Positions 61,448 through 64,000 of a stretch of 64,000 nucleotides of DNA are shown here, piece by piece. The notes beneath the pieces were generated by a model, which worked only from the letters and a program-made list of their open reading frames with translations, ran no database searches and was not told the DNA's origin. The stretch's first letter is position 1. The number at the start of each line of letters is the position of its first letter. A program made the translations under genes and the position numbers. Source of the stretch: Beverwykella pulmonaria. Taxonomy: Eukaryota; Ascomycota; Dothideomycetes; Pleosporales; Melanommataceae. The stretch spans positions 1,796,263-1,860,262 of the forward strand of contig BCHH01000003.1 of the NCBI GenBank assembly GCA_001599595.1, read 5' to 3'.

Positions 61448-62134
61448 CTAAAAGTTGGCATGGCCCAGCCCAACCCAAGAGCACTCCACGTGTAGAGAAT
61501 ATTCCACATCCTCTTCGCGTTTCGTCTCGCGTTTCTCTGTCCGTGACATTCGCTCATGGACACTGAACTCAGATAAAGGACTCCCTCGAAGAGCTTTGAT
61601 TGAAATTCCTGTCGTGTCTTGAATTTCTTGCGCAAGTGAAATTTTGTCCCCAAGTCGTTTGCCTTCTGAGGAAAAGAATTCGACGGATTTCGGAGCAAGT
61701 AGTTCTTGGAGTGTCTAGCCTCGAGCAAACCATCTGCTGTGCTGGAAGGCCGATGTCCATGTCCGCTGAGAGGAAAGATCGATAGAGCCACCAACCGAAA
61801 CATCGGATAGATATACGTAGCATTGAGTCGCTTCATAGTACCAGCGAAACATGGAGTTGATCGCTTCCGATAGTGCCGCGCTACTTTATTTGTCGACGCA
61901 GCAGGTATCCACCCAGAACCACCGGAGACTGTCTTTTGCAGCTCGCTCACCGCAAAAGGTAAGCTTACGATAACCCGCCTTACTCTTGCATGTACCCTCT
62001 GTCAAGTCTTTAAATGTAACTTCATCCTGATCCACTCCCAATGTGTGTGAAAGAATTGTATACAACGGGATGTTCCTGCCGACATGTTCAACCAGGCTGA
62101 ACTCGCCGTCATCTTCGAGCCGTAAAAAACGCAT
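61448..62134 (-). pseudogene. HET-domain (heterokaryon incompatibility) pseudogene
   Basis: The start at 62134 gives MRFLRLEDDGEFSLVE, the usual first residues of this HET subfamily, then YTILSHTLGVDQDEVTFKDL (related proteins have SHTWG) and LRWFWVDTCCVDK. A TAA at 61886 follows. The same frame continues as SEAINSMFRWYYEATQCYVYLSDV and RWFARG, then TAG at 61715 exactly where relatives have Trp in GWTLQELLAP, then TLQELLAPKSVEFFS and a last TAG at 61448. HET domains trigger cell death when unlike fungal individuals fuse. The Trp-to-TAG change fits G-to-A mutation. The 3' end is arbitrary because decay continues. Confidence 0.82.
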
Positions 62135-62378: not shown

Positions 62379-64000
62379 TTACGTCCCCACCACCGTGATC
62401 CAGCATCCAACATTCCTAATCCCCAATCGAAGTGTTCGTAACAGACAAAGATTCTGAGCACTGCGTTCATATTAGCGCCTATACAAACTGGCCTAACACA
62501 GAAGGCAGAGGGACACAACATACAGTCTAAAGCTTCAAGTCCAACATGTTAGTGCTTAGATCAAACAAGTTGCCAAGGGAGGCGAAGAGGCACGACTTAC
62601 ACACTAAAGCGCCAGACCCACCATATCAGCGCCTATACCAAACCAGTCGGCTATAAAGTCGAAGGAAAACCACTTACAACCTAAAGTGCCAGGCCAAACA
62701 TATTAGTATCTATATCAAACTAGCCGGCTACAAAATTCAAAGAAACATCACTTACTCTCTAGAATACCGGACCCAGCATGTCAGCGCATATACTAAGCCA
62801 GCCTGCTAACGAAGGCAGAAGAACGACACTTACAGACTAAATCGCCAGACCCAGCATGTCAGCGCCTATATCAAACCAGCTCGCCACAGAGGGTAGAGTG
62901 AAGCTACTTACAGACTAAAGTGCCAGGCCCATTATGTTAGTATTAATATCAAATAGTTTGCCACAATAGGTCAGGGAGGTCTACTTACACCCTTAAGAGC
63001 CAGACACAGCATATTAGTGCCTGCACAACCTAGTCCGCCACAGAGGGCAAAGGGACGCTACTTACACCCTAAGCTAGCATGTCAGCACTTATATCAAATA
63101 GTTTGCTGCAAGAGATCAGGGAGGACCACTTACACCCTAAAGCGCCAGACCCAGTACATTAGCGCCTGTACCAACCTAGCCTGCTAAAAGTGGCAAAAGG
63201 ACACCACTTACAGGCTGGAGCGCCAGGTTAGCATATTACTGCTTATTGAAACCAGTCCTGCTATAGAAATTATAGGGACACTACTTACTAACTAGAACGC
63301 CAGACCCAGCATGTCAGCACCTACCCTAATAGGCGAAGGGACACCACTTACGGGCTATATCACCAGACCCAACATATCAGTGACTAGACCAACCTAGCCC
63401 GCCATAGAGGGTAATGGGACACCACTTACAAACTAAAGAGCCAGGCCCAGCTTGTTAGTCTCTATATCCAAACAGTCCTCTACAGAACATTAATAGAATA
63501 ACTTACATCCTAAAGTGCCAGATCCAGCAAATCAGCGCTTAGACCAAGGCAGGCGGCCACAGAATCCGAAGAGAGGCCACTTACATACTAAAGCGTTAGA
63601 CCTAGCGTGTTAGTGCATGCAGTACACTAAATAAACTTGCTATGAAAGGTGAAGGGACGTTACTTACACACTAAAGCGCCAGACCCAGCATATCAGTAGC
63701 TGCAGTACACCCAAAAATCCCACTATAGGAGGTGAAGGGACACCACTTACTTGCTAGAACGCCAGAGCCAACATATTAGCATATATACCAGGCCAGTCAA
63801 AGATACACCACTTACTTTCTAAAGAGCCAGACCCAGAATATCAGCACCTATATCAGATAGTGTGCCATATAAGGCATAGGGGCACTACTCACACCCTAAA
63901 CTAGCATGTCAGTGCCTGTATCGAAGTCTTTGCTACGAAAGGGAAGGAAGGACCACTTACACCCTAAAACACCAGACTCATCATATCAGTGTCTACATTG
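62379..64000 (-). CDS. Partial gene of single-codon exons (20 exons of 3 nt plus terminal exon)
   Basis: Predicted from splice signals only. In transcription order the 3-nt exons are GGT 63961, GGT 63893, AAA 63816, CAA 63751, TGT 63668, TAT 63585, GAT 63507, TTT 63430, CCC 63352, TTA 63289; then CCT 63212, GGT 63134, GGT 63066, GGT 62989, TCT 62912, TCT 62834, AGA 62756, GTT 62678, TGT 62601, ACT 62524 (lowest coordinate of each). The terminal exon 62379-62453 begins Asn-Leu-Cys-Leu-Leu-Arg and ends TAA. Phase 0 gives Gly/Ser/Pro-rich residues with two microexon Cys and no stop. A phase-2 reading is also open and would end ~8 bases later (SRWWGRKP), so the phase is supported by codon pattern, not proven. 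Introns are 60-80 nt. The 5' exons, start codon and any signal peptide lie beyond the window. Every exon is 3 nt, so skipping any subset keeps frame. Function unknown. Confidence 0.6.
62454..64000 (-). repeat. Tandem array of intron-like units, period about 77 bp
   Basis: Twenty complete units and one partial unit run to the window edge. Minus-strand unit: donor GTAAGT (18 of 20; one GTGAGT, one GTATGT), GGTGTCCCTTCGCC-like stretch, a GGCNGGCTGGTTTGRTATAGG-like middle, branch site RCTRAY (GCTGAC, GCTGAT, ACTAAC, GCTAAT), TGCTGGGTCTGGCGC, TTTAG or another AG acceptor, then three variable bases. Intron lengths from right to left are 65, 74, 62, 80, 80, 75, 74, 75, 60, 74, 75, 65, 74, 74, 75, 75, 75, 74, 74 and 70. 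Units differ from each other at many internal positions, so the array is not freshly homogenised, yet splice signals persist. It could be read as an ordinary minisatellite, but that does not explain the constant 3-base gap. Confidence 0.92.

Follow-up and report, generated by a model that had tools for sequence, protein, structure and literature searches.

The micro-exon genes (MEGs) of Schistosoma are a superfamily for secreted proteins with a conserved signal peptide but little else in the way of conserved motifs, and have short exons of 3–81 bp (PMC10526429). The bicycle genes of aphids are fast-evolving putative effectors with about 17 exons on average, including many small internal exons, and aphid megacycle has more than 100 microexons (PMC9168663). 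A 3-nt exon of Drosophila homothorax can be spliced (PMC7392893), and the lipS gene of the fungus Dactylellina is annotated with two exons of this length (PMC5639578). Filamentous fungi also contain introner-like elements and stwintrons, spliceosomal introns that resemble one another in sequence and multiply (PMC9860276, PMC8469720); for all of these systems we draw on excerpts of the cited reports. Among the matches listed for broad queries of the open-access literature, outside which subscription papers and preprints largely fall, we found no description of a run of one-codon exons.

We characterized such a run in the window, by which we mean the whole 64,000-nucleotide stretch of DNA that was analysed. 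The run belongs to a complete minus-strand gene at 64125-62416 on the window's scale, which extends 125 bases past the window's end and consists of a 29-codon exon 1, 21 introns, 20 exons of 3 nt and a terminal exon with a TAG stop codon. All 21 introns are in phase 0 and are 60–80 nt long. Conceptual splicing gives a frame that is open for 63 residues (MNAKILLVGFFAAIAAAAPTPDNGIKERA-GGKQCYDFPLPGGGSSRVCT-CSESLSVTNTSIGD), starting with a leader from exon 1 (MNAKILLVGFFAAIAAAAPTPDNGIKERA) that, judged by eye, resembles a signal peptide, and a TATATAAA motif is present upstream of the ATG. The features of the gene are the following, placed by the parse except where another basis is named.

64125-64039 (L009:4125-4039), minus strand: exon 1, 87 nt, ATG to GCT, signal-peptide-like, outside the window (in-frame parse)
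64038-63964, minus strand: intron 1, straddling the window end
62461..64000, minus strand: tandem array, introns 2-21 whole and the 3′ part of intron 1 (GT...CTRAY...AG, 60–80 nt each)
63961..63963, minus strand: exon 2, GGT (Gly), between AG and GTAAGT
63893..63895, minus strand: exon 3, GGT (Gly)
63816..63818, minus strand: exon 4, AAA (Lys)
63751..63753, minus strand: exon 5, CAA (Gln)
63668..63670, minus strand: exon 6, TGT (Cys), also matched in a further pattern listing
63585..63587, minus strand: exon 7, TAT (Tyr)
63507..63509, minus strand: exon 8, GAT (Asp)
63430..63432, minus strand: exon 9, TTT (Phe)
63352..63354, minus strand: exon 10, CCC (Pro)
63289..63291, minus strand: exon 11, TTA (Leu)
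63212..63214, minus strand: exon 12, CCT (Pro)
63134..63136, minus strand: exon 13, GGT (Gly)
63066..63068, minus strand: exon 14, GGT (Gly)
62989..62991, minus strand: exon 15, GGT (Gly)
62912..62914, minus strand: exon 16, TCT (Ser)
62834..62836, minus strand: exon 17, TCT (Ser)
62756..62758, minus strand: exon 18, AGA (Arg)
62678..62680, minus strand: exon 19, GTT (Val)
62601..62603, minus strand: exon 20, TGT (Cys), also matched in a further pattern listing
62524..62526, minus strand: exon 21, ACT (Thr)
62416..62460, minus strand: terminal exon, coding part, 14 codons and TAG (45 nt), in frame with exon 1

A sequence-only reading of the window had described 20 consecutive minus-strand units with exactly 3 nt from each AG to the next donor, and our re-parse recovered all of them, together with the 18 GTAAGT donors that it had counted among the 20 within the window (the other two are GTGAGT and GTATGT). 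Its placement of the branch site, about 20–30 bases before the AG, holds for 17 of the 21 introns, which have 22 nt between the branch A and the intron end, but not for introns 2, 11 and 13 (13 nt) or intron 21 (11 nt); GT, CTRAY and AG are present in all 21. The feature had been started at 62379, whereas the coding part ends at 62416. It had also been called the 3′ part of a gene in which each exon is one codon. The reading as a gene is supported, but the array makes up nearly the whole gene, with exon 1 only 125 bases beyond the window, and one codon per exon describes the 20 internal exons but not exon 1 (87 nt) or the terminal exon (45 nt coding), both of which are ordinary.

The pattern AG-NNN-GTRNGT occurs 20 times in the array span, whereas 2000 base shuffles of that span gave 0.28 on average. 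When the whole array was used as a query, it matched only itself in the assembly. The upstream neighbour of the gene is a MYND-type protein, 78% identical to one of Melanomma pulvis-pyrius and 62% identical to a Pleomassaria siparia protein, both genera belonging to the Pleosporales, an order to which the fungus therefore probably belongs. Downstream of the array, the minus strand of window 61880-61925 reads WFWVDTCCVDK, followed immediately by a stop in that frame, a sequence which we take to resemble a HET-domain motif.

We found that the design recurs elsewhere in the 45.6-Mb assembly. The pattern GTRAGT-N50..80-YAG-NNN-GTRAGT has 413 matches, compared to 39 for a reversed-pattern control, and 387 of the 413 fall in nine loci; the other 26 are fewer than the control's 39. 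Eight loci look intact, namely the window gene (L009) and seven sisters, with 20–88 one-codon exons each (22–88 in the sisters). The sequence-only reading had implied one such gene, and several are present in the same assembly; its proposal of a spliced gene with one-codon exons is supported by these seven sister genes, by the in-frame leader with its start codon and by the frame that is open to the stop. The genes and two decayed loci are listed below.

Window gene: 20 one-codon exons
L043: 83 one-codon exons
L044: 37 one-codon exons and one 9-nt exon
L045: 88 one-codon exons
L046: 80 one-codon exons
L047: 22 one-codon exons
L049: 44 one-codon exons, and 14 before a 1090-base run of N, with the frame read as two pieces
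L050: 55 one-codon exons
L048, about G000:C11:577500-578320, minus strand: decayed, truncated relic of a shared-leader array gene
L063, about G000:C18:141240-141650, minus strand: decayed, truncated relic of a shared-leader array gene

The known loci of this design therefore number ten (eight genes and two relics), a count that arrays with other donors or far longer introns could have escaped. The relic on C18 surfaced only in a later search with other donors: GTATGT donors gave 20 matches compared to 19 in the control, some of the 20 being in known loci, and this relic was the one new place of the family. A search of the assembly with the 3′ end returned exactly the seven shared-leader loci, while searches with the L046 promoter and leader (three places) and with the L047 leader (two) returned known loci only and partly missed known sisters. 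Neither the 3′-end nor the leader searches recovered the C18 relic, and they are therefore not exhaustive. Two other sequences were seen in the assembly. A short minisatellite at G000:C8:1494523-1494694, whose units carry GTAAGTATGT, matches the pattern searches but is not an exon-intron array, and a stretch present on four contigs (G000:C1:2685744, C4:3172636, C7:151485 and C16:286597), identical in the 80 bases compared, is possibly a transposable element.

The two relics show the birth and death of array genes, and with two loci clearly in that state, the window copy could itself be silent or decaying. However, donor, branch site and acceptor are kept in 21 of its 21 introns, all its internal exons are 3 nt long, its frame is open and the TATATAAA motif precedes its leader, all of which makes decay quite unlikely and favours an intact window gene.

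After conceptual splicing, the window gene and six sisters have an uninterrupted frame from ATG to stop, and both pieces of the gap-split eighth gene are likewise open. Related leaders are common to L043, L044, L045, L046, L047, L049 and L050, and six aligned leaders share M1, L6, M9, A16, P18, L31 and R34. Six of these seven shared-leader genes have their stop at the very start of the terminal exon, L050 having a single extra codon there, and essentially the whole mature part is therefore encoded one codon per exon. Alignment with sister loci was used to set by hand the last acceptor of L044, L045 and L047, and to merge by hand the first intron of L045 and L046, which lie roughly 10 kb apart in opposite orientation (G000:C3:166500-192400). 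Introns across the gene set are 58–80 nt long, except for the two merged first introns of 130 nt. The first introns of L045, L046 and L049 (in L049 by reading) contain an internal AG that directly abuts a donor, as if it marked a zero-length exon or a recursive splice site; removal in one or two steps gives the same message.

The mature parts of the shared-leader genes are very different from each other. That of L043 consists of glycine-rich repeats, those of L045, L046 and L049 are rich in Thr, Leu and Pro and have a cysteine-containing end, L047 has six Cys in 22 residues, and L044 has six Cys in 40 residues, in the order C-C-CC-C-C at array-peptide positions 4, 14, 20, 21, 25 and 37. The L044 and L047 products would thus be cysteine-rich, like many secreted peptides. 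The consensus order of the knottin (inhibitor cystine knot) is also C-C-CC-C-C, and the L044 order fits it, with a first loop of nine residues that is longer than usual; we found no significant match to a knottin family or structure, the best Pfam matches (E 0.021–0.024) being below the cut-off and no solved structure being matched at E<=10. A match of the window product to DUF1505 (E 0.017) is likewise below the cut-off and was not taken as real. None of the eight spliced products had a Pfam match above the curated cut-off, and searches for protein homologues with the window product (1 candidate) and with a family alignment of six products (3989 candidates) gave none at E<=10. Genes of this kind would probably escape standard gene prediction, and more of them may therefore lie hidden in sequenced fungi. 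That the homology searches failed is what one might anticipate were such genes overlooked in every genome, yet the failure is not evidence that they are.

The data supports our reading that the triplets are codons. We found no stop among the 443 one-codon exons of the eight genes, compared to 6.8 expected from within-locus column shuffles, and zero stops were reached in none of 10000 such shuffles; in the intron interiors, 8.1% of triplets are stops. The window gene alone is not significant (0 stops in 20 codons, 0.84 expected, P-value 0.36), and the zero-stop probability per single locus ranges from 0.05 to 0.95. As these probabilities are mostly not small, the strength of the result lies in the sum over loci. 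An in-frame stop is present in 425 of 438 introns and the length is not a multiple of three in 99 of 438, and intron retention would consequently be destructive. The chain finder behind the codon lists rewarded exon lengths in multiples of three; when it was rerun for the exon-length test without that reward, 425 of 430 exons were 3 nt long. Exons of 4–14 nt are not enriched genome-wide (74 compared to 183 in the control). The entropy of exon positions 1 and 2 is 1.88–1.91 bits, compared to 0.00–0.02 bits for the flanking AG and GT, and position 3 is T in 321 of the 443 exons.

These measurements bear on the reading that the units are a non-coding minisatellite with chance intron-like motifs. 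The window copy is indeed detected as a tandem repeat with a period of 78–83 bases, and the antisense strand has stop-free runs of 334 aa in L046 and 275 aa in L050 that exceed those in 50 shuffles. The antisense runs are probably an effect of the 72-base period, the other six spans being free of them, and in the unspliced reading the longest run without a stop is, in six of the eight spans, of a length that the shuffles also reach. A minisatellite would leave unexplained the zero stops in 443 triplets, the in-frame leader and stop of the seven genes that could be followed over their full length, the confinement of variability to two bases plus a wobble position, flanked by an invariant AG and GT, and the position of seven arrays behind related leaders. 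It would also leave unexplained a codon order that is conserved while the introns are only slightly closer in register, and we therefore consider it very improbable compared to an array of coding exons.

The codon order was compared between paralogues. When L046 and L049 are counted back from the stop, 19 of 44 codons are the same, compared to a mean of 4.2 and a maximum of 12 in 20000 shuffles, whereas their introns are hardly more alike in register (identity 0.787) than out of register (0.749, sd 0.074). In the peptide alignment of these two genes, 43 codon pairs agree in 70, 81 and 81% of cases at positions 1–3, respectively. The alignment of L045 with L049 has a z of 6.2, and that of L045 with L046 a z of 4.7, with at least one of 300 shuffles scoring higher (96 compared to 93). 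Unit pairs with an intron identity of 0.75–0.80 generally agree in only 8–9% of their codons. Because the ordered codon match is well above both the shuffles and these general unit pairs, the paralogues have inherited an ordered series of codons.

This conservation also bears on how the exons would be joined. If the one-codon exons of a spliced gene were skipped or included at random, the gene would yield a mixed set of isoforms that differ from each other in single residues. The frame would always be kept, as all introns are in phase 0 and the internal exons are 3 nt save one of 9 nt, and the units are nearly interchangeable: among 435 introns, 397 have GTAAGT donors, 427 have YAG acceptors and 365 have the CTRAY A located 18 nt from the intron end, so that the array genes carry the U2-type consensus at donor, branch site and acceptor. 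However, skipping all the internal exons would leave nothing but a bare leader in the six shared-leader genes whose terminal exon opens with a stop, and the conserved order and identity of the codons are best explained by fixed inclusion. Random skipping is therefore unlikely, and we favour a message in which every one-codon exon is included.

Blocks of units are duplicated within the arrays. Units 55-59 and 60-64 of L043 form a tandem block whose introns are 0.91–0.99 identical; of its five codon pairs, four match exactly and one is synonymous. The introns of L046 units 1-3 and 13-15 are 0.94–0.97 identical and accompany the same three codons, and those of L050 units 9-10 and 16-17 are 0.98–1.00 identical, one of the two codons being unchanged and the other differing at a single base. 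As the duplicated blocks carry both introns and codons, the units multiply together with their codons. Compared to L046 and L049, L045 has one codon fewer after the last cysteine, which fits the gain or loss of one unit. At intron identities of 0.90–0.95, only 31–36% of codons agree, and this could be due to fast codon diversification or to constraint on the introns. That codons have changed far more than introns was not taken as a sign of positive selection, since intron constraint could cause the excess.

Wide differences between codons beside similar introns (31–36% agreement at identity 0.90–0.95) would also be expected if an older, ordinary gene had received an introner-like element at each of its codons, instead of units having multiplied in tandem, and introners are known from Pezizomycotina fungi, according to the excerpted report (PMC9860276). 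Intron constraint may inflate the intron identity, and the codon comparison is therefore not decisive on this question. The block duplications, which carry codons along with introns, argue against insertion. So does the distribution of the family intron tail motif (at most 3 mismatches), which has 201 copies in the genome, 200 of them in array loci, and 1 in the control, although more than half of the array introns are not recognized by the motif and diverged single copies could escape it. All seven genome matches of the window gene's intron motif are in the window array. Consequently, unlike introners, neither intron type was found dispersed in ordinary genes by the tail-motif and window-motif genome searches. 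We know of no mechanism that would insert introns exactly every three bases and always in phase 0. Overall, insertion into an older gene appears improbable, and we prefer the tandem multiplication of intron and codon as one unit.

The introns of the seven shared-leader loci average 63–76% identity within and between loci, and their interiors are conserved well past the splice signals. Such conservation would also be compatible with the introns being the product, the array serving as a host transcript for many small RNAs. Yet an Rfam scan of four loci (L009, L044, L046 and L047) gave no match, and folding of 20 introns in each of the eight loci gave no excess structure compared to shuffles (mean z from −0.08 to +0.78). 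Together with the coding evidence (zero stops, open frames and codon order), these results make intron products highly implausible and again favour the protein-coding reading.

The leader and 3′ end of the window gene differ from those of the seven shared-leader genes, and the family intron profile gave no match to the window gene's introns at E<=10. When the window intron consensus was compared to the seven loci, only 0–2 of 1000 signal-keeping shuffles were as good for five of them, and 41 and 85 of 1000 were as good for L044 and L043, respectively. A common origin of the window gene and its seven sisters is likely by this comparison; an independent origin of the window gene's design would be more remarkable.

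Taking together the observed architecture, open frame, absence of stops, paralogue codon order and duplicated unit blocks, we read the locus as a protein-coding gene for a small secreted protein, whose mature part is encoded by tandemly multiplied units of intron plus codon (probability of roughly 0.85). We infer the transcription of the array genes, their splicing and its order, and the secretion and function of their products. In the window gene, exon 1 would supply the signal-peptide-like leader, and the 20 three-base exons and the terminal exon would supply the rest. The spliceosome would remove the short U2-type introns by intron definition, whereby each strong GTAAGT donor pairs with the nearest branch site and AG. 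The unit of intron plus codon would also be the unit of duplication and recombination. As roughly 69 of the 72 bases per unit (about 96%) are intronic, nearly every exchange would fall in an intron, and exchange would thus add, remove or reorder whole codons while leaving the frame intact; the gain or loss of one unit would change the protein in frame by one residue. The array could then act as a device, by design or accident, that lets a small secreted protein change fast while its frame is kept.

We also propose, tentatively and at slightly less than even odds, that these loci represent a new gene class, where nearly every mature residue has its own exon and homologous introns are recombination spacers for inserting, deleting, reordering and perhaps, through exon skipping, combinatorially varying single residues. 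If transcripts confirm the architecture, it would be an extreme case of gene fragmentation, with up to 88 consecutive one-codon exons and 6–6.6 kb of DNA for 115–123 residues. Dozens of 3-nt exons in succession make heavy demands on any spliceosome. A fungal spliceosome that handles dozens of them consecutively would test models of intron definition, splicing order and fidelity, and a recombination unit of one amino acid would be a possible answer to the rapid change of small secreted proteins.

The internal exons of bicycle genes and megacycle hold several codons, whereas those of the array genes hold one, and we know of no relation between this animal family and the array genes. Almost all of the bicycle and megacycle internal exons are in phase 2 according to the excerpted report (PMC9168663), compared to phase 0 in the array genes. 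Like the MEGs, the array genes place many very short exons behind a signal-peptide-like leader. The MEGs differ in having, in the excerpted description, variable exon sizes and introns of up to 5 kb (PMC10526429), whereas 443 exons of the array genes are exactly one codon long and their introns are 58–80 nt (130 nt in the two merged cases) and alike within the gene set. The general protein search (E<=10) and the Pfam comparison revealed no sequence relation to the MEGs. Homothorax and lipS have one or two 3-nt exons per gene in the excerpts cited above, while the array genes have runs of 20 to 88. Introners, as those excerpts describe them, insert in many genes genome-wide, whereas the array introns are in tandem with one codon between copies, and 200 of 201 tail-motif copies are in array loci. 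We rate the architecture as new in kind, while a cautious reader could call the array genes an extreme variant of the micro-exon genes.
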